A stretch of 64,000 nucleotides of DNA, from contig JAFZOI010000016.1 in NCBI GenBank assembly GCA_017550645.1, positions 186,001 through 250,000 of the forward strand, read 5' to 3'. The position numbers and the translations under genes were made by a program. A model generated the notes under the pieces. That model ran no database searches, was not told the DNA's origin, and saw nothing but the letters and a program-made list of their open reading frames with translations. The number at the start of each line of letters is the position of its first letter. The stretch's first letter is position 1. Positions 1,893 through 64,000 of this stretch are shown here, piece by piece. The DNA comes from Oscillospiraceae bacterium. Lineage in GTDB: Bacteria > Bacillota > Clostridia > Oscillospirales > Oscillospiraceae.

Positions 1893-2627
1893 GTGATACG
1901 AACGGTCATATGGGTCTTTCTGGCGGCGCTGCTGCTGCTCGTGCTGTCCCCCGTCTTCTTCGTGCTGTGGCTTTTCAGGGACAGGAGCGAGGACGCGGGC
2001 CCGAACAAGGCCGCGGCGGCGGTGTTCGCGCCGCCCGTGCGCTTCATGGCTCGCGTGGCCGGAGCTAAGATAGCCGTCGAGGGGCGCGAGAACCTCCCCG
2101 AGGGCGGCGCGCTCTACGTCGGCAACCATCAGGGCTACTTCGACGCGCTCGTGGCGCTTTTATATCTCGGGCCGATGAAGTGCCTGTTGCTGAAGAAGTC
2201 CATAGCCAAGCTCCCGGTCGTGAACATCTGCGTCGACCTGCTCGCCTCCATTCCCATCGACCGCGAGAACCCGCGCGACAGCCTGCTCGGCATCCGCAAG
2301 GCCTCGGCGAAGCTCGCCGCGGGCCGCTCGGTCGTCATTTTCCCGGAGGGGACGCGCAGCCGCGGCCCCGAAATGGGCGAGTTCAAGCACGGCGCGTTCA
2401 AGGCCGCGCTGAAATCAAACTGCGTCATAGTTCCGTTCGCGATAGACGGATCGTATAAATGCTTCGAGGAGCGCGGGCGCCTTCGCCCCGCGACCGTGCG
2501 CGTATCCGTCCTCCCGCCCGTGCGGCCGGAGGAGTACGCGGGCATGCGCGCGCCGGAGCTCAGCGAAATGATAAAAGAGCGTATCCGCGGAGAGCTCGAC
2601 CGCATGAGGAGGTCTCCCGCCGGATAA
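1893..2627 (+). CDS. 1-acyl-sn-glycerol-3-phosphate acyltransferase (PlsC family)
   Basis: A 244-residue protein with one N-terminal membrane helix (about residues 3-27), the NHQGYFD (HX4D) catalytic motif, a PIDRE motif and the FPEGTRS substrate-phosphate motif. These define the PlsC/LPLAT family, which transfers an acyl chain to lysophosphatidate at the membrane. The start is GTG at 1893 with AGGTGA six bases upstream. The next gene, a DegV fatty-acid-binding protein, begins 17 bases after its stop, which fits a role in placing exogenous or recycled fatty acids into phospholipid. Acceptor specificity cannot be read from sequence. Confidence 0.87.
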   Translation: MIRTVIWVFLAALLLLVLSPVFFVLWLFRDRSEDAGPNKAAAAVFAPPVRFMARVAGAKIAVEGRENLPEGGALYVGNHQGYFDALVALLYLGPMKCLLLKKSIAKLPVVNICVDLLASIPIDRENPRDSLLGIRKASAKLAAGRSVVIFPEGTRSRGPEMGEFKHGAFKAALKSNCVIVPFAIDGSYKCFEERGRLRPATVRVSVLPPVRPEEYAGMRAPELSEMIKERIRGELDRMRRSPAG

Positions 2628-2644
2628 CGCCCGGAGGAGACCCC

Positions 2645-3511
2645 ATGAGAGACTATATCATCCTGACCGATTCCGGCTGCGACATAGACGAGGCCGAGCT
2701 CGCCGAATGGGGCGTACGCCGCCTCGACCTGACGTTCAAGAGCGTCGGCTCCGCCGAGGAGCACACAGACCGCGAGATCGGCGTCAAGGAATTCTACGAC
2801 AAGATGCGCGAGGGCGTCGTCTACCAGACCTCGGCCGCCAACCCCGACTACCTCGCGGAGGTCTTCGAGCGCGAGGTCGCGGCCGGGCGCGACGTGCTCT
2901 ATATCTGCTTCTCGTCGGGCCTGAGCGGGACGTTCGGCTCGGCGCAGATGGCCGCCGCGGAGGTCGAGGCGAAGCACCCCGGCAGCCGCGTCGTCGTCGT
3001 GGACTCGCTCTGCGCCTCGGCGGGGCACGGGCTGCTCGTCTGGCTCGCGAAGGAGCGCAGGGACGCGGGCGCGGCGCTTGACGAGCTCGCGGCGTACGTG
3101 ACCGAGACCGTCCCGCGCGTCTGCCACTGGTTCACGGTCGACGATCTCGTCTACCTCAAGCGGGGCGGGCGCGTGAGCGCGGCGGCGTGCTTCGCGGCGA
3201 CGGTGCTCGGCATCAAGCCGGTCCTGCACGTCGACGACGAGGGGCACCTCATCAGCATGTCGAAGGTGCGCGGGCGTCGGCTCGCGCTCAAGGCGATGGC
3301 GGACAAATACGTCAAGACGGCGCTCGACCCGTCGGGCGGGATATACTTCATCTCCCACGGCGACTGCCTCGAGGACGCGGAGCGGCTCGAGGGCATGCTC
3401 GCGGAGTCCTGCGGGCACAAGGCGGCGCACATATCGAACATCGGGCCGGTCATCGGCGCGCACAGCGGGCCGGGGACGCTGGCGCTGTTCTTCCTCGGCG
3501 AGCCGAGATAA
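2645..3511 (+). CDS. DegV family fatty-acid-binding protein
   Basis: A 288-residue DegV/FakB-type protein. It starts with the ILTDSGCDI motif and carries the SGLSGTFGSA loop that holds the fatty acid carboxylate in this family, a VDS motif and a HWFTVDDLVYLKRGGR segment. FakB proteins present a bound fatty acid to FakA for phosphorylation. The ATG at 2645 is chosen because GGAGGA sits 6 bases upstream; a longer open frame to 2459 lies inside the acyltransferase gene and is rejected. A second DegV protein and a FakA-type kinase occur at 59801-63712. Confidence 0.87.
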   Translation: MRDYIILTDSGCDIDEAELAEWGVRRLDLTFKSVGSAEEHTDREIGVKEFYDKMREGVVYQTSAANPDYLAEVFEREVAAGRDVLYICFSSGLSGTFGSAQMAAAEVEAKHPGSRVVVVDSLCASAGHGLLVWLAKERRDAGAALDELAAYVTETVPRVCHWFTVDDLVYLKRGGRVSAAACFAATVLGIKPVLHVDDEGHLISMSKVRGRRLALKAMADKYVKTALDPSGGIYFISHGDCLEDAERLEGMLAESCGHKAAHISNIGPVIGAHSGPGTLALFFLGEPR

Positions 3512-50489: not shown

Positions 50490-50550
50490 ACTGTAAACAG
50501 CCATATAATCGGCGGGAGGCTCCCGCCAATCAAAAGAAAGGATGTCGAAT

Positions 50551-51003
50551 ATGTTTTGTGTAAAGTGCGGCGCCGAGATCGAAGACGGCACCCAGTTCTG
50601 CCCGAAGTGCGGCGCCACTCAGGAGCCCCCCGTCGCGGCCCCCGCCGAGCCCGTTTATAACGCCGCTCCCGCCGCGGCTCCCGCAGCCGAAGCCGGCAAG
50701 TCCAAGTCCATCGTCTCACTGGTCTGCGGCATAGCCTCCATAGTCCTCTCCGGATTCTTCTCCGCCAGATGGGTGGGCGTCGTCCTCGGCATCATCGGCC
50801 TCGTGGCCGCCATCGTCGGCCTGAGCATGACCAAGGCCGCCAGAGCCGAAATGGAAGCCGCCGGCATCGATCCCTCGACGGGCAAGATGGCTCAGGTCGG
50901 CAAGATCCTCTCGATCATCGGCCTCATCTGCGCTATAATCGCCATCATCGTCGCGATAATCCTCGCCATCGTCTACTGCAGCGTCAAGAAGTACCTCTAT
51001 TGA
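50551..51003 (+). CDS. Zinc-ribbon membrane protein (DUF4190-like)
   Basis: A 150-residue protein with an N-terminal double CxxC zinc ribbon (CVKCGAEIEDGTQFCPKCG), an Ala/Pro-rich linker and two or three membrane helices, a common Firmicute architecture of unknown function. ATG 50551 is chosen because GAAAGGA is well spaced from it, whereas the ATG at 50542 abuts that site. Confidence 0.8.
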   Translation: MFCVKCGAEIEDGTQFCPKCGATQEPPVAAPAEPVYNAAPAAAPAAEAGKSKSIVSLVCGIASIVLSGFFSARWVGVVLGIIGLVAAIVGLSMTKAARAEMEAAGIDPSTGKMAQVGKILSIIGLICAIIAIIVAIILAIVYCSVKKYLY

Positions 51004-51082: not shown

Positions 51083-51850
51083 ATGGAATACGTGACGATA
51101 TTCGGCCGCCCCTTTCCCATATACGGGCTCTGCGTCCTCGCGGGGATACTCCTCGCGGCGGCGACGATACTCGTCCGCGGCCGTAAAGAGGAGCGCGATC
51201 TTGATTTTCTGACGTTCCTCTGCGCCTGCGTCGGGCTCTACGTCGGGGCGAAGCTCCTCTATCTCATCACGATAGCCCCGCGGCTCATAGTGCGCCCCGA
51301 GCTCCTGCGCGACCCGGAGTTCGTCGAGTCCATCGTCTCGGGCGGCTTCGTATTCTACGGCGGGCTCATCGGCGCCGTCGCCGGCATAGCGATATACTGC
51401 CGCGCGATGAAGCGGCGCTTTCTCGCCGTGCTCGACACGCTCATCCCCTGCGCCGCGATAGGCCAGGCGGCGGGGCGCGTCGGATGCCATCTAGTCGGCT
51501 GCTGCTACGGCGTCCCGTATTCGGGGCCTCTTGCCGTCACGTATCCCGTCGGAGAGCACGCCTTCGGAGGCGTGCCGCTTTTCCCGGTGCAGCTTGCCGA
51601 ATCGGCTCTGCTCGTGGTAATATATATCGTGCTGATGCTGCTCGGGCGCAGGCGCGAGGGCTTCGCCTCGGGGCTCTACCTCGTCTGCTCGGCCGTCACG
51701 CGCTTTCTGCTCGAATTCGCGCGCGGCGACGCCGAGCGCGGGATATTCCTCGGGCTCGCGACCTCGCAGTGGATAGCTCTGCTGATACTGCTCCCGCTCG
51801 GCATATTTCTCATCGCGCGCTCGGCGCGCAGGAAAGGAAAAGAGATATGA
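51083..51850 (+). CDS. lgt: Prolipoprotein diacylglyceryl transferase
   Basis: A 255-residue membrane enzyme with about seven helices and Lgt signatures FVFYGGLIG and GRVGCHLVGCCYGVPY, the variant common in Firmicutes. It moves diacylglycerol onto the lipobox cysteine of prelipoproteins such as ModA here. Its stop overlaps the rmlA start (ATGA). Confidence 0.85.
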   Translation: MEYVTIFGRPFPIYGLCVLAGILLAAATILVRGRKEERDLDFLTFLCACVGLYVGAKLLYLITIAPRLIVRPELLRDPEFVESIVSGGFVFYGGLIGAVAGIAIYCRAMKRRFLAVLDTLIPCAAIGQAAGRVGCHLVGCCYGVPYSGPLAVTYPVGEHAFGGVPLFPVQLAESALLVVIYIVLMLLGRRREGFASGLYLVCSAVTRFLLEFARGDAERGIFLGLATSQWIALLILLPLGIFLIARSARRKGKEI

Positions 51851-52733: not shown

Positions 52734-52768
52734 CCGCCCGCGGAATAAACTTCCGCGGGCGGTTTTTT
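52734..52768 (+). terminator. Terminator after rmlA
   Basis: A 12-bp stem (52734-52745 with 52751-52762) followed by six T residues. Confidence 0.85.
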
Positions 52769-52815: not shown

Positions 52816-52844
52816 TTGCACGCTTCGACAAAATGTGATATAAT
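52816..52844 (+). promoter_or_regulatory. Promoter of the acyl-activation operon
   Basis: TTGCAC (52816-52821), a 17-base spacer and a perfect TATAAT (52839-52844), about 35 bases before the first gene. No other promoter is evident until the window ends, so it may drive all eleven genes. Confidence 0.72.
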
Positions 52845-52886: not shown

Positions 52887-54800
52887 ATGAAAAACCCCAC
52901 GATCGCGGGCTTTTCCCGCATCAACGACTACGTAAAAGACAAGCTTCGCCGCTTCGAGAGCATGGAGCCCGGCTTCGCCTCGCTCTTCGAGCTCATGTTC
53001 TCCGAGAGGGACAACGTGCTCTATGAGGTCAGCGAGGGCTACAGGATAGTCCGCACGACCTACGGCGAGGCGCGCGAGGCCGCGATCGGGAAGTCGGCCG
53101 CGCTGTCCCGCATGCTCGCGGACGTCCCGCGCGGAGCCGTCGTCGGCATATATCTGGAAAACGGGCCGGAGTGGATAGAGACGCTCTGGGCCGTTCTGCG
53201 AAGCGGCTTCCGTCCGCTGCTGATGAACATGCGCCTCGACGACGAGACGCTGCGCGAGGCCCTGCGCGAGGCAGACGCCGCCGCGGTCATATCCGAGAGC
53301 CGCGAATTCGGCGTCCGCGCCATACACGGGCTCCCGCCCGAAGAGGCGGACGGCGGCGAGACAGAATTCGCCGAGGAGCTCCTCGTCATGAGCTCGGGCA
53401 CGAGCGGCGGGGTCAAGCTCTGCGCCTACGGCGCGGAGGAATTCCGCCTGCAGATCCGCGACAGTCTCGACATCATCCTCAAATGCAAGGCGATGAAAAA
53501 GCTCTGTAACGGGCAGATAAAGCATCTCGACTTTCTCCCGTTTTACCATATATTCGGCCTGACGGCGGTCTACGTCTGGTTCGGCTTCTTCGCGCGCACG
53601 TTCGTGCATCTAAACGACCTCGCGCCGCAGACGATAGTCAACACCATACGCCGCCACGAGGTCACGCACGTCTTCTCCGTCCCGCTCTTCTGGGAGAAGG
53701 TCCGCGAGCAGGCGCTGCGCGTCATCGACGAGCGCGGCAAGCGCGCTAAGTTCGACAGGGCGCTCGCCCTCTCGCTGAAGATAAGCGGAGTGCCGCTGCT
53801 CGGCCCGCTTTTCGCCAAGCTCGCCTTCCGCGAGGTGCGGGATAACCTCTTCGGGGAGAGCATAAGCTTTATGATAACGGGCGGGAGCGCGATCCCCGCG
53901 CGCGTTCTGGAGTTTTTTAACGGCATCGGCTACCGCCTCGCCAACGGCTACGGCATGACCGAGACGGGCATCACCTCCGTCGAGCTCTCGGACAGCGTCC
54001 GCGTGCGCTGCACGGGCTCCGTCGGGAGACCCATGAGCTCGATAACGTACTCGCGCGGGCCCGACGGCGGGCTCCGCGTCTCGGGGACGTCGACGGCCAA
54101 ATACATAATAGAGGGCGGCGCGCGCCGGGAGCGCGAAGCCGTTTTCGATACGCGCGATCTCGCCGAGGAAAAGGGCGGCCGCTGGTATATCCTCGGACGG
54201 CGCGACGACCTCGTCGTCTCCCCGGGCGGGGAAAACCTCAATCCCGAGATCATCGAGCAGAGATTCGACATAGACGGCCTCGACGGGGTCTGCCTCGTCG
54301 CGGACAGGCGCGGCGGGGAGAGCGTCCCCGTCCTGCTCGCGGGCATAGGCCGCGGCTGCTCGCCCGCTAAGGCGGAAAAGCTCGGCTCGGCCGTGCGCGG
54401 GCGCATAGGCGAGCTGGGGCTCGCCCCGGAGATAAAGAGCGTCGTCCTCGTAGCGGACCGGCTCATCGGCCCGGACGAATTCAAGCTCAACCGCAGAAGG
54501 CTCGCCGCCGCGCTCGAAAGCGGGTCTCTCCCCGTATTCGACCCCTCCGAACAGGTCGAGGCGCCCGACGATCCCCTCTGCGCGGAGATACTCGGGATGT
54601 TCGCCGCCGCGCTCGGAAGGGAGCCCGGCTCCGTCTCGTATACGGCCGATTTCTTCCTCGACCTCGGCGGGTCGAGCCTCGACTACTTCGCCATGATCGC
54701 CGCCCTGCGCGAGCGGTTCGGCATAGACTTCCCCACCGAGGCGGGCAGCAGCCTTGGCAGCGCCGAGGCGCTGTATGAGTACGTAAAGGCCAAGATATGA
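52887..54800 (+). CDS. Adenylate-forming enzyme (ANL superfamily) with C-terminal carrier domain
   Basis: A 637-residue protein. An ANL adenylation domain has the phosphate-binding loop VMSSGTSGGVK (usual Pro-Lys-Gly replaced by Gly-Val-Lys), NGYGMTETG and YILGRRDDLVVSPGGENL, with a C-terminal lysine in DEFKLNRRRL. A carrier domain from about residue 550 has the phosphopantetheine site LDLGGSSLDYF. It would activate an acyl chain as acyl-AMP and load it on its own carrier arm. It starts the tight lipid operon and its stop overlaps the next gene (ATGA). Substrate unknown. Confidence 0.83.
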   Translation: MKNPTIAGFSRINDYVKDKLRRFESMEPGFASLFELMFSERDNVLYEVSEGYRIVRTTYGEAREAAIGKSAALSRMLADVPRGAVVGIYLENGPEWIETLWAVLRSGFRPLLMNMRLDDETLREALREADAAAVISESREFGVRAIHGLPPEEADGGETEFAEELLVMSSGTSGGVKLCAYGAEEFRLQIRDSLDIILKCKAMKKLCNGQIKHLDFLPFYHIFGLTAVYVWFGFFARTFVHLNDLAPQTIVNTIRRHEVTHVFSVPLFWEKVREQALRVIDERGKRAKFDRALALSLKISGVPLLGPLFAKLAFREVRDNLFGESISFMITGGSAIPARVLEFFNGIGYRLANGYGMTETGITSVELSDSVRVRCTGSVGRPMSSITYSRGPDGGLRVSGTSTAKYIIEGGARREREAVFDTRDLAEEKGGRWYILGRRDDLVVSPGGENLNPEIIEQRFDIDGLDGVCLVADRRGGESVPVLLAGIGRGCSPAKAEKLGSAVRGRIGELGLAPEIKSVVLVADRLIGPDEFKLNRRRLAAALESGSLPVFDPSEQVEAPDDPLCAEILGMFAAALGREPGSVSYTADFFLDLGGSSLDYFAMIAALRERFGIDFPTEAGSSLGSAEALYEYVKAKI

Positions 54801-55447
54801 TCCGATTCTGGAACGCCTTTGTAAAAATATCGGGCTGGCCCGTCCAGCTCTTGTGCTTCCGCACGAAGGTGCATTACGCGGACCGCGCGAAGCAGGGCCG
54901 ACGCATCAGGGGGCCGGCGATGATCATATCCAATCACACCGCCGTCTACGACTACGTCGTCTGGCTCTTCGTCTTCTTTTCGAGGACGCTCCGCTTTCAG
55001 ATGGCCGAGCTCCTCTTCCGCAAGAAGCCGCTGGGCTCGCTGCTCCGCGGGCTCGGCGGGATATACGTCGACCGCGACGCGCGCAACATGGGCTTCATAG
55101 CCGAGTCCGAGCGCATCCTCGAAAAAGGCGGCGTCGTCGGCATATTCCCGGAGAGCAGGCTCCCCCGCCCCGGCGAGGAGCGTCCGCTCCCCTTCGCGCC
55201 GAGCGCGGCCTACCTCGCTCTCTCTTCGGGAGCGCCGGTCATCCCGGTATACACGGACGGAGCGTATTTCTCCCTGCGCCGCCGCGCGCACGTCATCATA
55301 GGCGCGCCGTTTTACGCCGCGGATATCGCGGGCGGGGACGGCGCGGAAAGGGAGCGCATCTCGCGCGCGGCGGAGGCCATGCGCGGGATAGTCAAGGAGT
55401 TGGGTCATGAGCTCGAAAGGCAAAAAGCCGCCTCTTCTCGCGGCTGA
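54797..55447 (+). CDS. PlsC-like acyltransferase
   Basis: A 216-residue LPLAT-fold protein with SNHTAVYDY (HX4D), IYVDRD and GIFPESRLPR in place of the usual FPEGTRS. No N-terminal membrane anchor is as long as in the gene at 1893. It overlaps the next acyltransferase gene by 41 bases. Likely acyl donor is acyl-ACP or acyl-phosphate made by its neighbours. Confidence 0.82.
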   Translation: MIRFWNAFVKISGWPVQLLCFRTKVHYADRAKQGRRIRGPAMIISNHTAVYDYVVWLFVFFSRTLRFQMAELLFRKKPLGSLLRGLGGIYVDRDARNMGFIAESERILEKGGVVGIFPESRLPRPGEERPLPFAPSAAYLALSSGAPVIPVYTDGAYFSLRRRAHVIIGAPFYAADIAGGDGAERERISRAAEAMRGIVKELGHELERQKAASSRG

Positions 55448-56060
55448 ATATTTCTTCTACGACTTCACAAAGCTGACGGCGGCCCTGCCCGGGCTCCTCT
55501 GGTTCCGCCCGAAGGTGCTCTACGCCTCCGAGGCGGCGAAAAAGAAGATAAAGGGCGGCGCGCTGCTCATATCCAACCATACGGCGGTCTTCGACCCTAT
55601 CTATCTCCAGATCGCCGTCTGGTACAGGCGGCACCGCTTCGTCTGCCTGAAGGAGTTCTTCGAGAGCAGGGGCGGCTGGTTTTTCAAGGCGTTCCTCTGC
55701 ATCCCGATAGACAGGGAGAATTTCAACATCTCCTCGTTTCGCGAGATAACTGAGCACCTGAGGCGCGGCGAGCTCGTCAGCATGTTCCCGGAGGGGCACA
55801 TAAACGAGGAGACGGAGGGCGTCGCCGCCTTCAAATCGGGCATGGTGCTCATGGCGATGAGAAGCGGCGTGCCGATAGTCCCCGTCTACGTGCGCAGGTG
55901 GGAGGGCTTCCCGCGAAGGCTGACGATGGCCGTCGGCGAGGCGATTGACATAGCCGCGCTCTGCGGCGGGCGGCCGACGATGTCGCGCATTGACGAGATA
56001 TCCGCGCTGCTGCACGAAAAGGAAGACGAGCTCCGCGAGCTCGCCGAAAAACGCAGATAA
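55407..56060 (+). CDS. PlsC-like acyltransferase
   Basis: A 217-residue LPLAT-fold protein with SNHTAVFDP (HX4D), CIPIDRENF and MFPEGHINEE. It is related to its upstream neighbour, sharing WFRPKV/FRTKV and the HX4D region, so the pair probably arose by duplication. ATG 55407 has AAGGAG 7 bases upstream inside the previous gene. Two such enzymes could acylate two positions of one backbone. Confidence 0.84.
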   Translation: MSSKGKKPPLLAAEYFFYDFTKLTAALPGLLWFRPKVLYASEAAKKKIKGGALLISNHTAVFDPIYLQIAVWYRRHRFVCLKEFFESRGGWFFKAFLCIPIDRENFNISSFREITEHLRRGELVSMFPEGHINEETEGVAAFKSGMVLMAMRSGVPIVPVYVRRWEGFPRRLTMAVGEAIDIAALCGGRPTMSRIDEISALLHEKEDELRELAEKRR

Positions 56061-56091
56061 CTCAATTTACTTACTTCCGGAGGAAAACAGC

Positions 56092-57594
56092 ATGAAGACA
56101 CAGTCTGCCGAGGTTTTCAGAAAGTACACGACGCCCGAGACTTTCGCGCGCATAAGGGAATTCGATTCCGTCGCCGCGATGTGGGCCGAGTGCGTAAAGC
56201 AGTACGCGGACGACGTCGCCATAGTCGACGAAGGAAAGGAATACACCTTCGCCGAGCTCGAGCGCGACGCCGCTCTGCTGCGCACGGCGATAGCCGCGGC
56301 CTCCGACGCGCCCCGCGTCGCGCTGCTGGCCGCAAACTCCTATGATTTCGTAAAGGCGTTTCTCGCCATAGCGACGCTCGGCCGCTGCGCGGTCATTCTC
56401 CCGCCGCAGCTCGACGCGCCGACCGTCTTCGGCTGCTGCATGAAATACGGCGCGGGCCTGCTTCTTTACCAGCCCGCTCTGGCTGAGCGCACAGCCGTCG
56501 CAGAGAGCAAGGTCGCGCTCCTTCCCGCCGACGCCGCGGGCGAGACGCCGACTCCCGCCGCCGAAGTCCCCGCTGAGGCCGCCTGCTGCGTCATGTTCAC
56601 CGGCGGCACGACCGGCCGCAGCAAGGGCGCGCTCCTGTCAAACGGGGCCGTCATGCAGGGCGTGGTCAACGGCTGCTACGGCTATGAGGACGTCTTCTCC
56701 CAGCGCTACATGCTCGTTCTCCCGCTGACGCACGTCTTCGGGCTGATCAGGAACCTGCTGACCTCGCTCTATACGGGAAGCGCGCTGTTTATATGCCGCA
56801 ATACCAAGGACATGTTCCGCGACATCGCGGCCTTCAGACCGACGATATTCGTCCTCGTCCCGGCGCTGGCCGAGATGGCGCTGACGCTCTCGCGCAAGTT
56901 CGGGCGCAACATGCTCGGGGAAGACATGAAGTATATAATCGCCGGCGCGGCCCCCGTCTCGCCCTATCTCGTCGCCGAGTACAAGAAGCTCGGCATCGAC
57001 CTCTTCCCCGGCTACGGGCTGACCGAATCGGCCAACCTCGTCTCCGGCAATCCGGAGAGCCTGACTAAGCCCGACTCCGTCGGCATCCCCTACCCCAATC
57101 AGGAGTTCAGGATCGAAAACGGCGAGCTCTGGCTCAAGGGCAAGAACATGATGGACGGCTACATCGGAGAGGACGAGGCCGACGTATACGAAGACGGCTG
57201 GTTCAAGACGGGCGATCTCGTGCGCCTCGACGACGAGGGCTTCCTCTACATCACCGGCCGCATCAAGGAGATCATCGTCCTGCCGAGCGGCGAGAACGTC
57301 TCCCCGGCGGAGGTCGAGGCGAAGTTCAACGAGCTGCCGTTCATCCAGGACAGCCAGGTATTCGAGGACGTAAACGAGCAGGGCGCGCATTTCCTCGCGC
57401 TGGAGGTCGTGCCTCGCGCGACCGAGCTCGCGGGCGTCGAAAAGGACAAGGTCGGCGCTTTCATCATGGCCGAGCTTGAAAAGGTCAATTCCGCTCTCCC
57501 GTCCTTCGAGCGCGTCAACCGGATAGTCATCCGCGACAGCGACTTCGAGAGGACGCCGAGCATGAAAATAGTGAGATACAAAAAATGCAACTGA
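56092..57594 (+). CDS. Acyl-CoA/acyl-ACP synthetase-like adenylating enzyme (ANL superfamily)
   Basis: A 500-residue ANL enzyme with VMFTGGTTGRSKGALLSNGA, PGYGLTESANLVSG, YEDGWFKTGDLVRLDDEGF and a final catalytic lysine in RTPSMKIVR. It lacks the carrier domain of the first ANL protein, but the free carrier gene starts 10 bases before its stop, suggesting acyl-ACP formation. GGAGGA precedes the ATG at 56092. Confidence 0.87.
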   Translation: MKTQSAEVFRKYTTPETFARIREFDSVAAMWAECVKQYADDVAIVDEGKEYTFAELERDAALLRTAIAAASDAPRVALLAANSYDFVKAFLAIATLGRCAVILPPQLDAPTVFGCCMKYGAGLLLYQPALAERTAVAESKVALLPADAAGETPTPAAEVPAEAACCVMFTGGTTGRSKGALLSNGAVMQGVVNGCYGYEDVFSQRYMLVLPLTHVFGLIRNLLTSLYTGSALFICRNTKDMFRDIAAFRPTIFVLVPALAEMALTLSRKFGRNMLGEDMKYIIAGAAPVSPYLVAEYKKLGIDLFPGYGLTESANLVSGNPESLTKPDSVGIPYPNQEFRIENGELWLKGKNMMDGYIGEDEADVYEDGWFKTGDLVRLDDEGFLYITGRIKEIIVLPSGENVSPAEVEAKFNELPFIQDSQVFEDVNEQGAHFLALEVVPRATELAGVEKDKVGAFIMAELEKVNSALPSFERVNRIVIRDSDFERTPSMKIVRYKKCN

Positions 57595-57842
57595 CAAGAG
57601 AAGACATCATCGAAGAGCTCAAGAGCATACTGCTCGCCGCCGACGACAAGAACGCGGACCTCGTCGAGACCTGCACGGAGGACTCCGTCCTCTCGACGGA
57701 CCTCGGCCTTTCCTCCGTCGCGATGCTCTACATGGTCATCGCCATAGAGGAGACGTTCGACGTGCGTTTCGACGACGTCGGCATGGACGATTTCAAGACC
57801 CTCGGCGACGTCGTGACCTTCATCGAGGAACACGCCGCATGA
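57585..57842 (+). CDS. Acyl carrier protein
   Basis: An 85-residue acidic carrier protein with the phosphopantetheine site DLGLSSVAML (Ser44). It overlaps the ANL gene upstream by 10 bases and the LRAT-PPTase gene downstream by 4, so the protein, its loading enzyme and its modifying enzyme are made together. Confidence 0.9.
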   Translation: MQLTREDIIEELKSILLAADDKNADLVETCTEDSVLSTDLGLSSVAMLYMVIAIEETFDVRFDDVGMDDFKTLGDVVTFIEEHAA

Positions 57843-58861
57843 AGTGGCTGCCCGGCGAGTGCCGCCCGGGCGACATGATCCGCGTCCGGCTCGGCTCTAT
57901 ATACCACTACGGCATATTCGTCACCGAGGACGAGGTCGTCCAGTTCGGCCCGCCGCCCGTCGGCGAGCGCGCGCCGGACGAGAAGATAGCCGTCTGCACG
58001 ACGGACATAGAGGGCTTCTGCCTCGGCAATATTGTCGAGGTCGCCGTCTTCGAGCGCAGGGAGCGCCGCTTCTCCCCGGAGGAGACGGTCGCGCGAGCCC
58101 GCGCGAGGCTCGGCGAGGGCGGATACAACCTCATCCACAATAACTGCGAGCACTTCGCCTACGAATGCGCGCTCGGGGTCTCCCGCAGCACGCAGGAGGA
58201 GGACGCGCGCAGGCGCTGGAATTCCCGCCCCATCCTCGATATTTACCTCGCGGCTATCCCCGAGAACGTCGAGGGGACGGTATCGAGCCCCGCCCGCGCG
58301 GCGGAGCTTGAAAAGACCCGCGATCCCTCGCTTCGCGCCCAGCGGCTGCTGGTCTGGCAGGTCCTCGAATACGCGATAAGGCGCTCTCTCGGCGTCGAGC
58401 CGGAGGACGCGAAGCTAAAGCGCGACAAGTTCGGCAAATGGAGCGGAAAGGGCGTATACGTCTCCCTCTCCCATACGCCGCGGGCCGTCGCCGCCGCCGT
58501 CTCGAACGGGCCGGTCGGGGTGGATATCGAATCCCCGCGCGAATGCCGCCGGCTCGAGGCCGTGACGGCGCGCATACTGACCCCCGCCGAGGCCGAGGGC
58601 TTCCCCTCCGGCGACGCGGAGGCCTTCCTCGAGATGTGGACGCGCAAGGAATGCGTCTATAAATGCCGCGGCGGAAAATACTTCGCCCCCGGCAAGATCG
58701 AGACCTCCGAGCACGAGATAAAGACCCTGCGCCTCGCCTCCCCTTCCGAGCTCATACTCAGCTTCTGCGGCGACAAGCTCGCCGCGGCGAGGCTCTTTGA
58801 ATACGACGGGCGCCTCGCGCGCCTCATCCCGCCCTCCGCTCAGAAGGAAGTCGAACGATGA
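57839..58861 (+). CDS. Fusion of an LRAT-type thiol acyltransferase and an Sfp-type phosphopantetheinyl transferase
   Basis: A 340-residue two-domain protein. Residues about 1-125 form an LRAT/NlpC-type domain: RPGDMIRVRLGSIYHYGIFV with catalytic His23, then VVQFG where a second His often sits (here Gln), and NNCEHF with Cys103. LRAT enzymes form an acyl-thioester on this Cys and pass the acyl group to an acceptor. Residues about 170-335 are a 4'-phosphopantetheinyl transferase: GVYVSLSHTP, VGVDIESP (about 226) and MWTRKECVYK (about 265). It probably activates the ACP beside it and handles the acyl chain. I know of no characterised protein with this fusion. Confidence 0.85.
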   Translation: MKWLPGECRPGDMIRVRLGSIYHYGIFVTEDEVVQFGPPPVGERAPDEKIAVCTTDIEGFCLGNIVEVAVFERRERRFSPEETVARARARLGEGGYNLIHNNCEHFAYECALGVSRSTQEEDARRRWNSRPILDIYLAAIPENVEGTVSSPARAAELEKTRDPSLRAQRLLVWQVLEYAIRRSLGVEPEDAKLKRDKFGKWSGKGVYVSLSHTPRAVAAAVSNGPVGVDIESPRECRRLEAVTARILTPAEAEGFPSGDAEAFLEMWTRKECVYKCRGGKYFAPGKIETSEHEIKTLRLASPSELILSFCGDKLAAARLFEYDGRLARLIPPSAQKEVER

Positions 58862-59808
58862 TATTCGTGTGGATAGCCGCCGCACTCGCGGCGCTCTACC
58901 TCATCTTCATAGTCGGCCCCGCGATCGTGGCCTTTTTCAAGGTCTTCGAGCGCAAGGACTGCCCTCCGCTGGACGAGATCGACCTCGCATCGACGTCGTA
59001 CGCGCCCTGCGCGGAGCTCCTTCTGGAGCGCTATGCCCGCATGAAGGCGGAGCCCTCGGAGGACGTCGTCCTGACCGCGCTCGACGGGACGGAGCTCCAC
59101 GCGATGCTCTATGCCCGCGGAAACGGGCGCCTCGCCGTCCTCGCGCACGGATACAGATCCGCCCCGCTCAATTCCTTCTGCACGCAGGCATCCGACCTCC
59201 TCGACGGCGGCTTCGACGTCCTGCTCATATGGCAGCGCGCCCACGGCCCGAGCGGCGGCGTGCGCTCCAGCCTCGGTATTTGGGAGAGCCGCGATCTGCT
59301 CTCCTGGCTCGATTGGGCGGACGAGAGATACGGCGAAGTCCTCGTATGCGGGGTATCTATGGGTAGCGCGGCCGCGGCCTACGCGAGCACGGAGTTCCCC
59401 GCCTCTGTCGGGGCGATGGTCCTCGACAGCGGCTTCATCTCGCCGCGGGCCCAGCTCATGTCCGACTGCGCCAAGCGGCATATTCCCGGGCGGCTCGTCG
59501 TCCCCATAATAGAGCTGATAGCCCGGATTTTCCTCGGCATAAGGCTCGACGAGCCGACGACGCGCTATCTCGCCCGGACGAAGACGCCCGCGCTTTTCAT
59601 TCACGGCGAGGCCGACCTCAGCGTCCCCTTCGAGTCGGGGAAGATCGCTTACGCCGTCTGCGCCTCGGAAAAGGACGCATATTTCCTCCCCGGCGCGGGG
59701 CACATCCTCTGCTATCCCGCCGGAGGCGAGGAAGCTAAGGCGAGGCTTTTTGGTTTCATCGACAAATACTTTCAGATAAACAACCTCAAAGGAGAAAGCC
59801 ATGAATAA
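58858..59808 (+). CDS. Alpha/beta hydrolase with N-terminal membrane helix
   Basis: A 316-residue membrane-anchored hydrolase. One N-terminal helix (about 2-24) precedes an alpha/beta fold with VLAHGYRSA, the nucleophile elbow GVSMGS, an acid in HGEADLSV and GAGHIL with the catalytic His. It may release acyl chains from lipids or act as a thioesterase for the neighbouring carriers. It overlaps both neighbours, by 4 and 8 bases. Confidence 0.83.
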   Translation: MIFVWIAAALAALYLIFIVGPAIVAFFKVFERKDCPPLDEIDLASTSYAPCAELLLERYARMKAEPSEDVVLTALDGTELHAMLYARGNGRLAVLAHGYRSAPLNSFCTQASDLLDGGFDVLLIWQRAHGPSGGVRSSLGIWESRDLLSWLDWADERYGEVLVCGVSMGSAAAAYASTEFPASVGAMVLDSGFISPRAQLMSDCAKRHIPGRLVVPIIELIARIFLGIRLDEPTTRYLARTKTPALFIHGEADLSVPFESGKIAYAVCASEKDAYFLPGAGHILCYPAGGEEAKARLFGFIDKYFQINNLKGESHE

Positions 59809-60739
59809 GTTTGCAATAGTCGCGGACTGCACGTGCGATCTGAGCGAGGAGCTCGAGGCCCGCCTCGGGGTGGACGTCCTCCCCGGGCACGTAGTCCTGC
59901 CCGGCAAAACGGAGATACCCTCCCCCCGCAGATGGGAGCGCTGGACGCGCGAGGAATTTTACGCCGACCTGAAGAAGGACCCATCCTCCTACGCGACCTC
60001 CCCTCCGAACGTCGCGGCGTTCGAGGCCGCTCTGGAAAAATACGTCTCCGAAGGGACGGGCGTTCTCGCGATGACCATCTCGAGCGGCATCAGCGGGACC
60101 TTCAGCTTTCTTACTCAGGCCAAAAAGAACGTCCTCGAGCGGCATCCCGACGCCGAGATAGAGTGCCTCGACTCGCTGCGCTTCGGCCCCGGCTTCGGCC
60201 TCATGGTCATGCACGCGAGCGAACTCCGCGCCGAGGGAAAGACCCTCGCCGAGGTCGCCGCCTATTTCGCCGAGAAGCGCAACTGCTACCATCAGGCCGG
60301 CTGGCTCGACGATCTCTCCTTCGTCGCCAAGCAGGGCCGCCTGTCGCATTCGAAGGCCTTTTTCGGCCAGCTCGCGGGAGTCAAGCCCATAGGCGAATTC
60401 GACTATAACGGCATGACGACCGTCCTCGGCAAGGCCAAGGGCGCCAAGCAGGCCTTCTCGGTCCTGCTCGACTATATCGAGGCGACCATAGTCGAGCCGG
60501 AAAAGCAGACGATAGTCATAGCCCAGACGAACCGCCCCGCCGCCGCGGAGCAGTATAAGAAGATGATCGAGGAGCGCTTTCATCCCCGCGAAGTGCTCAT
60601 AAACGACGTCTTCCCCGCCTGCGGGATCAACATAGGCCCCGGCCTCATGGCGGCCTACTACGTCGGAAAGCCGATCTCCGCCGACCTCTCGGAGGAGCGC
60701 GCGATAATCGAGAAAGCTATCGGACAAGGGGACAAATAA
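59801..60739 (+). CDS. DegV/FakB-type fatty-acid-binding protein
   Basis: A 312-residue DegV protein with IVADCTCDLSEEL, TISSGISGTFSFLTQ (carboxylate-binding loop), CLDSLRFGPGFG and LDDLSFVAKQGRLS. FakB proteins hold a fatty acid while FakA phosphorylates it. AAAGGAG precedes the ATG. The gene for the kinase, FakA-type, is two genes downstream. Confidence 0.9.
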   Translation: MNKFAIVADCTCDLSEELEARLGVDVLPGHVVLPGKTEIPSPRRWERWTREEFYADLKKDPSSYATSPPNVAAFEAALEKYVSEGTGVLAMTISSGISGTFSFLTQAKKNVLERHPDAEIECLDSLRFGPGFGLMVMHASELRAEGKTLAEVAAYFAEKRNCYHQAGWLDDLSFVAKQGRLSHSKAFFGQLAGVKPIGEFDYNGMTTVLGKAKGAKQAFSVLLDYIEATIVEPEKQTIVIAQTNRPAAAEQYKKMIEERFHPREVLINDVFPACGINIGPGLMAAYYVGKPISADLSEERAIIEKAIGQGDK

Positions 60740-60742
60740 GAA

Positions 60743-62086
60743 ATGAAAAAGTTAACGAAGAGATGGCAGCTGTTCCTCTACGCCGCCGCGGGCATGGGAA
60801 TAAACATGCTCAACCTGATGGTCGGATCCTACCTTTGCAGCGCGCTGCTCGTCGGCGGCTTCGGCAAGGAGGTCGTTCCCTATCAGACGTTCGCCCAGCG
60901 CGACCTCATAATCCCCGCGGTCTGGGCCGTCTTCGCGCTCGCCGCGAAGATAATAGACGGCATCATCGATATCCCGATGGCGTCGCTGACGGATAACCTG
61001 CGCTCGCGCTTCGGGCGCCGCCGCCCGGCGATACTCATCGGCCTCATCCTCGTCGTCGCGGCGTATCTGCTGTTTCTCGTCATCCCGACGAGGGGCGCGA
61101 CGCTCGGCAACACGATATACTACGGCATAGTCCTCTGCGTCTTCTATTCGTTCTATACGCTCACGATGGTCACCTATTACGCGACCTTCACCGAGATAGT
61201 CGAGACCGAGGAAAAGCGCAGGACGATATCCAACGTCAAGTCCGTCTTCGACATCATCTACTTCATCCTCGGCTACGTCGTCGTCAGGATGCTGCTCAAC
61301 GGCCTGAATATCCGCGTCGTCGCGCTCATAGTCCTGCCGCTCGCGCTGACGATGATCATCCCGCTCTTCATGATAAAGGAGCCCTCCTCGAAGAACATCG
61401 AGAAGACGAAGACAGTCGGGCTCTTCAAGTCCCTCGCCTGCACGTTCAAAAACCGCACCTTCATCATCTGGATGATCGTCTACGCCTTCATGACCTTCGG
61501 CGTCCAGCTCTTCCTGGGCGGCATCAACGAATACTTCTCCTTCGTCGGGATGAACATGATATTCGTCATGGTCGCGGCGTTCGCGCCGGTGCCGTTTACG
61601 CTCATCCTCTATAACAGACTCACGCGAAAGCACGGCTTCGGCTTTGCGTTCCGGTATACGTTGATAATCTATTCCGCCGGCATGCTGTGCATGTTCTTCG
61701 TCGGGCTCATGGGCGGAGGCGCCGCCAAGACCATCCTCTCCATAGTCACGGGCCTGCTGAGCTCCTTCGCGATAGGCGCCATCTTCTCCGTGGCATACTC
61801 CATCCCCTCCCAGCTCGCGGCCGAGGAGGAGGAGAATACGGGCGTGGCCAACTCCGCGATGTATTTCGCCGTGCAGGGCCTCTTCGCGGGCGTCGCCTCC
61901 GGCATCGCGACGGGCGTCGTGCTGACGGCGCTCAAGGGCTCCGAGACGCAAAATTCCGGCGCGATGAAATACATGACGCTCATCTCCGCCATCGGGACGC
62001 TCGTCGCCCTGATACTGACCTTCGCGCTGCCGAGGTCCCTCGTCGAGCTCGGCAGTCAGAATAAAGAAAAGGCAAAAAAAGATTAA
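60743..62086 (+). CDS. MFS transporter of the GPH/MFS_2 type
   Basis: A 447-residue protein with about twelve membrane helices. The DNLRSRFGRRRPAILIG loop after helix 2-3 and AAKIIDGIIDIPMASLTD just before it are hallmarks of the GPH cation-symporter/MFS_2 family. The family includes sugar importers and, in animals, the lysolipid carrier MFSD2A. In this operon a lipid, lysolipid or acylated substrate is plausible but unproven. Confidence 0.85.
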   Translation: MKKLTKRWQLFLYAAAGMGINMLNLMVGSYLCSALLVGGFGKEVVPYQTFAQRDLIIPAVWAVFALAAKIIDGIIDIPMASLTDNLRSRFGRRRPAILIGLILVVAAYLLFLVIPTRGATLGNTIYYGIVLCVFYSFYTLTMVTYYATFTEIVETEEKRRTISNVKSVFDIIYFILGYVVVRMLLNGLNIRVVALIVLPLALTMIIPLFMIKEPSSKNIEKTKTVGLFKSLACTFKNRTFIIWMIVYAFMTFGVQLFLGGINEYFSFVGMNMIFVMVAAFAPVPFTLILYNRLTRKHGFGFAFRYTLIIYSAGMLCMFFVGLMGGGAAKTILSIVTGLLSSFAIGAIFSVAYSIPSQLAAEEEENTGVANSAMYFAVQGLFAGVASGIATGVVLTALKGSETQNSGAMKYMTLISAIGTLVALILTFALPRSLVELGSQNKEKAKKD

Positions 62087-63712
62087 ATGAAGACCAAACG
62101 CCTCAACGGCACCCTATTTGAAAAAATGCTGCGAAACGGGCTGGCGAATCTGCGCTCCCGCGAGCAGGAGATAAACGACCTCAACGTCTTCCCCGTCGCC
62201 GACGGCGATACGGGCACGAACATGTGCCTGACCGTCGAGAATGCGATCGGCTCCGCGGCGGGAAAGCCCGAGCTCTGCTTCTACCTGAAGGACCTCTGCG
62301 AGGGGATGCTGCTCGGCGCGAGGGGCAATTCCGGCGTCATACTCTCCCAGTTTTTCAAGGGGGCGTATCTCGAGCTCCAGCGCTGCGCCGCCGCGACCCC
62401 GGGCGATCTGAGAAACGCGCTCATCCGCGCCTACAAGGTCGCCTACGCCTCCGTCGCCCGCCCCGCCGAGGGGACGATACTGACCGTCACACGCGAGGCG
62501 GCCGAGCACATACGCGCGCAGATAGACCGCTCGACGACGATAGAGACGCTGCTCTCGATGTATATCGCCGCGATGCGCCGCGTCCTCGCAGCGACGCCCG
62601 ACATGCTCCCCGTCCTCAAGGAGGCGGGCGTCGTCGACAGCGGCGCGCTCGGCTTCATCGTCCTGTGCGAGGGCATGCTCAAATATCTCTACGGCGAGAC
62701 GCTAGAGCTCGCCGAGCTTCCCGCGAAGCCCGCTCCGGCGGCTTCCGGCGAGGTGCTCTTCGACGAGAACAGCGCCTTCGAGGAGGGCTACTGCATGGAG
62801 TTCGTGCTCCAGCTCATGCGTTTGGGAGACTACGACCAGCATTTCCGCATCGAGAGCTTCACGGACGACCTGCGCGACCTCGGCGACTCTCTCGTCGCCG
62901 TGCTCGACGGAAAGCGCGTCAAGATACACATACATACGAAAAAGCCCGCGCGCATCATCTCGCTCGCGCAGGAATACGGCGAGTTTATAAGCTTCAAGCT
63001 CGAGAACATGCAGCTGCAGCACAACGAGCATCTGGCCAGAACTGCGAAAAAGCCGCTCGCGACCGTCGCTGTCGTCAGCGGCGAGGGAACGGCGAAGCTC
63101 TTTCGCGAGTTCGGCTGCGACTCCGTCATAGACGGCGGGGCGACGATGAACCCCTCCCCGCAGGAGTTCGTCAGCGCCTTTTCGGGCCTGAGCGCGGAGC
63201 TCATAGTCGTCCTTCCGGACAACAAGAACGTCATCCCCGCCGCCGAGCAGGCGGCGGAGCTAAGCGGCAGGCGCGTGGTCGTCCTGCCCTCGAAGAGCAT
63301 AGCCGAGGGCTACTGCGCCCTCGCCATGGACCTGCCCGACAATCCGGACGCGGAATACCGCGTCTCCCAGATGCGGCGCGGGCTCGACAGCGTCGTGACC
63401 GTCGCGCAGACGACGGCCTCGCGCGATTTCTCTTTCCACGACATAAGCTGCCGCAAGGGCGACGAGATCGCCCTCGCCGACGGGGAGCTCGTCTGCGTAT
63501 CCGGCGACAGTCTCGACGCGCTGCGGCGCGGCCTTGCCGCCGTCCCCGGCATGGACGAGCGCGAGACGTGCGTCGTATTCCGCGGCGAAGGCGCCTCCCC
63601 CGAGGACGGGGACGCCCTCGAGGCGGCTCTCGCGGAGGACTGGCCGATGCTCGACGTCACGGTCATCGACGGCGGGCAGAGCGTATACCGCTGGGTCCTC
63701 GGCGTATTTTAG
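62087..63712 (+). CDS. fakA: Fatty acid kinase FakA-type (DAK2-domain) protein
   Basis: A 541-residue FakA-like protein. The N-terminal DhaL/DAK2 domain has INDLNVFPVADGDTGTNM (metal-binding Asps), GMLLGARGNSGVILSQFFKG and SGALGFIVLCEGM. The middle and C-terminal FakA domains follow (EGYCMEFVLQL, HIHTKKP, LPSKSIAEGYCAL). FakA phosphorylates FakB-bound fatty acids to acyl-phosphate. Its ATG directly follows the transporter stop. Confidence 0.9.
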   Translation: MKTKRLNGTLFEKMLRNGLANLRSREQEINDLNVFPVADGDTGTNMCLTVENAIGSAAGKPELCFYLKDLCEGMLLGARGNSGVILSQFFKGAYLELQRCAAATPGDLRNALIRAYKVAYASVARPAEGTILTVTREAAEHIRAQIDRSTTIETLLSMYIAAMRRVLAATPDMLPVLKEAGVVDSGALGFIVLCEGMLKYLYGETLELAELPAKPAPAASGEVLFDENSAFEEGYCMEFVLQLMRLGDYDQHFRIESFTDDLRDLGDSLVAVLDGKRVKIHIHTKKPARIISLAQEYGEFISFKLENMQLQHNEHLARTAKKPLATVAVVSGEGTAKLFREFGCDSVIDGGATMNPSPQEFVSAFSGLSAELIVVLPDNKNVIPAAEQAAELSGRRVVVLPSKSIAEGYCALAMDLPDNPDAEYRVSQMRRGLDSVVTVAQTTASRDFSFHDISCRKGDEIALADGELVCVSGDSLDALRRGLAAVPGMDERETCVVFRGEGASPEDGDALEAALAEDWPMLDVTVIDGGQSVYRWVLGVF

Positions 63713-63720
63713 GAGGAAGC

Positions 63721-64000
63721 ATGATCTTCTGGATAATAGCCGGCGCGGTCTTCTTTCTCTTCCTCGCGCCGTCAATGGTCCTCGCGGCGGTGCTGTATAC
63801 GGCGCTGCTGGTGCGTACTAAGCCCGAAAAATGGGGCCGCGAGTGCTCTCTGCCCGAGGACGTGGAGTATAAGCGCATGTTCGACATCGGCATCGCTTGG
63901 AACGACGTATGGAAGTCCCGCTCGCGCGAGGTCTCGATAACGTCGGACGGGTTCCGTCTCGTCGGGGAGTATTTCGATTTCGGCGGAAGCTCCGCCGCGA
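63721..64000 (+). CDS. Probable membrane-anchored alpha/beta hydrolase, 3' partial
   Basis: An open frame of 93 codons running off the window. It begins with a hydrophobic N-terminal helix (MIFWIIAGAVFFLFLAPSMV) and continues LPEDVEYKRMFDIGIAWNDV and VSITSDGFRLVGEYFDF, the lead-in typical of membrane-anchored alpha/beta hydrolases. GGAGGA precedes the ATG by 3-8 bases. The nucleophile lies outside the window. Confidence 0.7.
   Translation, partial: MIFWIIAGAVFFLFLAPSMVLAAVLYTALLVRTKPEKWGRECSLPEDVEYKRMFDIGIAWNDVWKSRSREVSITSDGFRLVGEYFDFGGSSAA

Follow-up and report, generated by a model that had tools for sequence, protein, structure and literature searches.

A conserved eleven-gene operon of rumen and gut Clostridia with a possible role in capturing acyl chains and attaching them to a lipid

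Layout of the locus and features of its gene products

The window analysed, a stretch of 64,000 nucleotides, corresponds to bases 186001-250000 of contig 22 in a draft genome of 1.93 Mb that is 87.5% complete. From position 52887 it carries eleven genes on the + strand, here called A to K, nearly all of which overlap or sit a few bases apart, with spacings ranging from -41 (B/C) to +31 (C/D). The order, places and spacings claimed in the first-pass annotation were all found, and Pfam supported the family named for each gene. Upstream, the preceding nucleotidyltransferase gene ends in a + strand terminator (52734-52762, a 12-bp stem followed by T6). By eye, we located a probable + strand promoter at 52816-52844, composed of an extended -10 element, TGATATAAT (52836-52844), a weak -35 element, TTGCAC (52816-52821), and a 17-base spacer. 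The single strong promoter proposed earlier is thus upheld in part: an extended -10 and an upstream terminator flank the start, but the -35 is poor and the promoter was missed by a consensus scan.

Five of the genes belong to families that activate or carry acyl groups. Gene A (52887-54800) encodes an acyl-AMP-forming ANL ligase that also bears a carrier domain at its C-terminus (PF00501, 2e-33; PF00550, 2e-9), in which Lys533 and the carrier Ser597 are invariant across the operon set; gene D (56092-57594; PF00501, 4.6e-54) encodes a second ANL ligase, of the fatty-acyl type, with an invariant Lys492; and gene E (57585-57842; PF00550) encodes a stand-alone acyl carrier protein with an invariant Ser44 (84/84). 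Neither ANL protein was closest to Aas. As in the FakA/FakB system of Firmicutes, gene H (59801-60739; PF02645, 1e-55) specifies a DegV-family fatty-acid-binding protein of the FakB type and gene J (62087-63712) a FakA/YloV-type fatty acid kinase with the Dak2 and the FakA-like middle and C-terminal domains (PF02734, PF21645 and PF13684) and a TIGR03599 score of 488.8 bits against a cut-off of 396. Unlike that system, however, H and J form a second set inside an acyltransferase operon, and both fall below the strict NCBIfam equivalog cut-offs (J, 349.6 vs 975 bits for S. aureus-type FakA; H, 88.8 vs 350 bits for FakB1). These families suggest, as the first-pass annotation had proposed, two activation routes beside dedicated acyltransferases, one giving acyl-phosphate through FakA/FakB and the other an acyl thioester through ANL and carrier proteins. 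Two operon carriers, G406 (81% complete) and G241, gave no FakA match, which suggests that they may rely mainly on ANL activation.

The PlsC-type O-acyltransferases B (54797-55447; PF01553, 8e-18) and C (55407-56060; Pfam and NCBIfam) retain the HX4D motif across the set (H47-x4-D52 in B and H58-x4-D63 in C), and the best NCBIfam match of C, below the cut-off, was the PlsC part of PRK08633 (acyl-ACP--phospholipid O-acyltransferase). Gene F (57839-58861; Pfam) encodes an LRAT/PLAAT-type thiol acyltransferase fused to an Sfp-type phosphopantetheinyl transferase (PPTase). Its LRAT domain (PF04970, 63 bits against a cut-off of 24.3) shares the LRAT fold with the PLAAT/LRAT phospholipase A-acyltransferases, has its nearest solved relative among them (PLAAT3, a phospholipase A/acyltransferase, 2.4e-6) and keeps the catalytic His23 and Cys103 in 86 of 86 sequences. 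It differs from them in being fused to a PPTase or a PlsC, in lacking a C-terminal membrane helix and in the second active-site His of the animal members, which at position 35 is replaced by Gln (53), Ala (29), Glu or Ser. The PPTase of F was the only one found in the window genome, of which about 12% is missing, and the operon may hold the cell's only carrier-activating enzyme. No separate PPTase was found in G241 (97% complete) either.

The remaining enzymes share an alpha/beta-hydrolase fold. Protein G (58858-59808; Pfam), which has an N-terminal hydrophobic helix, keeps the triad Ser167-Asp253-His282 in 77 of 77 sequences. Gene K (Pfam) starts at 63721, leaves the window at 64000 and ends 665 bases past it (L005:1721-2665); it encodes a membrane-anchored protein whose model (pLDDT 94) shows an N-terminal helix and the fold of an esterase or monoglyceride lipase. 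The first-pass annotation called K a further hydrolase, and the family was right, but the nucleophile is Cys instead of Ser: the triad is Cys168-Asp257-His286, with a GxCxG elbow, in 64 of 64 sequences. Because a cysteine nucleophile sits in an alpha/beta-hydrolase fold, K is probably an acyltransferase more than a hydrolase.

An adenylating enzyme and a carrier protein that each stand alone, as D and E do, are also the make-up of gut fatty acid amide (FAA) clusters (OaaA/OaaACP/OaaC), which pair the two and use exogenous fatty acids (PMC13142362). Since the LRAT superfamily can form amides, the D-E-F part might make small secreted fatty acid amides (N-acyl amines), with LRAT replacing the condensation domain. 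We consider this improbable: the defining condensation domain had no Pfam match on any of the eleven proteins, on which ground we rejected an identity as an FAA cluster; the operon adds LRAT, PlsC and Fak genes, so that two PlsC proteins, FakAB and K would be left without a role; and D and E are absent from some operons that retain A, B, C and LRAT. A second identity, LnsA-type lipoprotein N-acylation, with Lgt 1 kb upstream (51083-51850), was also rejected, because the LRAT domain shares a polypeptide with a cytosolic PPTase and the upstream genes are not conserved.

Conservation of gene order in relatives

An LRAT alignment was scanned against the genomes of 84,980 species, which gave at least 476 relatives, and the best 80 loci were fetched. 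As these loci were chosen by the LRAT domain alone, their neighbouring genes constitute independent evidence. Loss of the gene order in relatives, named beforehand as the outcome that would count against the first-pass annotation, was looked for; instead, 79 of the 80 loci were collinear and the median gaps between genes ranged from -5 to 79 bases, indicating that the gene cluster is not due to chance and supporting the claim of one operon. Where presence could be assessed, the genes were nearly always there (A 67/67, B 71/71, C 75/75, D 76/79, E 78/79, G 76/77, H 75/76, J 69/69 and K 61/61), and the transporter gene I was the sole optional member (40/72). The 80 loci being the most similar ones, more distant carriers may be less uniform. 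All 80 lie in Clostridia-type genomes, most of them from rumen; the relatives found by name are Clostridia, hardly any of them cultured, with rumen and gut as the main sources.

A genome of the same genus has A to F at 82-94% identity until its contig ends, and G345, from another genus of the same family, has all eleven genes in the same order at 40-67% identity. Two other layouts occur in other families: A-MFS_2-B-C-D-E-F (L072 and L073), and A-B-C-E-LRAT followed by K, two FakB genes and FakA (L075 to L078 and L080). In L076, PlsX adjoins FakA, a further likeness to the FakA/FakB system, and L080 has PlsX at the equivalent place. The PPTase fusion is optional, LRAT standing alone in many operons, and other fusions are found in relatives: PlsC-LRAT (L084), PlsC-PlsC (L085) and a single ANL, PlsC and carrier protein (G459). 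Our literature search, which had most subscription journals outside its scope, found no paper pairing LRAT with a PPTase, none among the results listed pairing it with PlsC, and none on the eleven-gene set as a system; all the constituent families are known, and it is the combination that appears to be undescribed. A related cluster without LRAT (L181:6184-13098, in the genome of L145) contains ANL, PlsC, PlsC and a protein of 1155 aa with ANL, two PlsC and carrier parts.

Genes upstream of the operon are not conserved, none recurring in more than 6 of 50 loci. Downstream neighbours are often small zinc-ribbon membrane proteins (up to 29/51) and an alpha/beta hydrolase on the opposite strand (35/51). 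Genes of these kinds lie at L005:2667-3740, L005:3804-5078 and window positions 50542-51003.

Fatty acid synthesis and the transporter

FabF was absent from the window genome and from G345 (100% complete), where we found only fragments of 20-25 bits, and FabH was absent from both as well. These two genomes seem unable to build fatty acids, and with FabF and FabH missing, their acyl chains would have to come from outside. This agrees with the first-pass view that chains are handled and not built, as no ketosynthase was found in the operon or in the genome. FabF was present in 204 of the 394 genomes of the order and kept in 19 of the 50 named operon carriers; the operon is therefore not simply a substitute for lost fatty acid synthesis. 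Housekeeping copies also exist outside it: PlsX was present in 11 of 11 genomes tested, and the window genome has a second FakA besides J, three further DegV proteins, further PlsC genes and other ACPs, so that basic uptake would not require the operon, which would be an added pathway. On the + strand at window positions 1893-3511, a PlsC gene (1893-2627) directly precedes a DegV/FakB gene, a pair that probably belongs to the housekeeping route for exogenous fatty acids.

Rumen cellulolytic species classically need branched volatile acids, and many FabF-bearing carriers gave no FabH match. Both points would suit a role in which the ANL enzymes supply primers for chain building, by loading volatile fatty acids that are short or branched, in species with FabF and without FabH. 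We regard such a role as very improbable, as the window genome lacks FabF too, so that it cannot apply there, and as it leaves PlsC, LRAT and the transporter unexplained. At least two FabF-type matches and no FabH match were seen in the genomes of L105, L109, L110, L112, L122 and similar ones.

Gene I (60743-62086; Pfam and profile search) encodes an MFS_2 (GPH-family) transporter. MFSD2A is an animal sodium-dependent lysophosphatidylcholine symporter, and the related MelB is a sugar carrier. In a profile search with I, MFSD2A structures (E 2.8e-6) were the sole solved family below E 0.06, and MelB did not appear up to E 10, though MelB structures are in the structure library. By fold the two are harder to separate: Foldseek ranked MFSD2A first with MelB close behind, and the VIA-align scores were tied. 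Asp72 and Asp76 are invariant in I, and both helix-II aspartates of MFSD2A are kept, whereas overall identity is about 15% and the alignment shows no counterpart of the TM11 lysine of MFSD2A. Taken together, a lysolipid substrate is suggested for I. The MFS_2 proteins at L072:4645-6558 and L073:4590-6548 have a C-terminal extension of about 240 residues with no Pfam match.

MFS_2 was present in 26 of 30 assessable carriers lacking FabF vs 2 of 19 bearing it (table 26/2/17/4; Fisher p 1.2e-7, a raw value). On a tree built from four operon proteins, however, the link was not significant, since it rests on no more than 3 to 6 independent trait changes. We therefore rejected the transporter as a marker of lost fatty acid synthesis and treat the association as a hint only.

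A proposed route from captured chains to a lipid

From the computed gene content, gene order, conserved catalytic residues and missing FabF and FabH, we infer substrates, a direction of flow and a product. The reading we prefer, tentatively and with a probability of roughly 0.47, is that of a single operon by which pre-formed acyl chains or lysolipids are captured and joined to a lipid, like an LplT-Aas system joined to FakAB. As substrates it would use free fatty acids, to which, where gene I is present, the MFSD2A-like carrier probably adds imported lysophospholipids or similar lysolipids; acyl groups may be released by hydrolase G. FakB (H) would hand a fatty acid to FakA (J), giving acyl-phosphate. 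Alongside this, A and D, as ANL enzymes, would form acyl-AMP and from it a thioester on the carrier domain of A and on ACP E, the latter activated by the PPTase of F. The PlsC pair, B and C, could then use the carrier-bound acyl groups to acylate one or two hydroxyls on an acceptor of the lysolipid or glycerol type, and the LRAT of F and the Cys-type K, as thiol acyltransferases, might exchange or add an acyl group. The operon would in this way supplement the ordinary phospholipid pathway.

The nearest parallel is LplT-Aas of E. coli (fused in PRK08633), which carries out lysophospholipid uptake and re-acylation (PMC11416262). Like it, the operon would combine an MFS carrier, putatively for lipids, with an ANL acyl-ACP synthetase and a PlsC acting via holo-ACP, and C is nearest to the PRK08633 PlsC. 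In the operon, however, MFS_2, MFSD2A-like by profile where present, takes the place of LplT; ANL (A and D) and PlsC (B and C) are in separate genes, a protein with both, as in Aas, being found only in cluster L181; and a carrier domain, LRAT, PPTase, K, G and FakAB are added. Grouping of LRAT, ANL-carrier and PlsC in other layouts and PlsX beside FakA support capture and re-attachment, and the fusions (LRAT-PPTase, PlsC-LRAT, PlsC-PlsC and ANL-PlsC-carrier) appear to tie its steps together. Against it, two thiol acyltransferases and a private PPTase exceed the needs of known salvage systems, and nearly half of the operons have no transporter gene.

Alternatively, the operon might make a dedicated, undescribed membrane lipid, with two PlsC and two thiol acyltransferases decorating a head group, some of the bonds perhaps being amides, and FakAB and ANL only supplying chains. 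Retention of the operon in FabF-bearing species and beside housekeeping salvage enzymes, the private ACP and PPTase, the fusions and the Cys nucleophile of K all fit such a product, as does N-acylation elsewhere in the LRAT superfamily, to which the N-acylating PLAAT enzymes belong; lipoprotein N-acylation by a superfamily member is reported for S. aureus (PMC7387801). The survey of collinear loci, however, found no conserved head-group, glycosyl or amino-acid-unit gene, and an MFSD2A-like transporter suits import better, so we rate this alternative as possible, at lower odds than capture and re-attachment. With similar reserve, we consider that carrier-bound pre-formed chains may be placed by the two PlsC and the two cysteine acyltransferases (PLAAT-like F and Cys-type K) on an acceptor yet to be named, giving a new lipid class, with lysolipid import by the MFSD2A-like carrier; such an assembly pathway would be widespread in rumen and gut Clostridia. 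Should the operon make a new lipid, many species, perhaps hundreds, would contain it.

Little work has addressed membrane building in those rumen and gut Clostridia that seemingly lack fatty acid synthesis, although such species meet much dietary and host lipid; the operon names every candidate step and so opens the question to gene-by-gene tests. Downstream of the operon, at L005:5372-8760 and L005:15459-17909, we observed, from translations only, two proteins resembling glycyl radical enzymes, one of which is accompanied by an activating enzyme.
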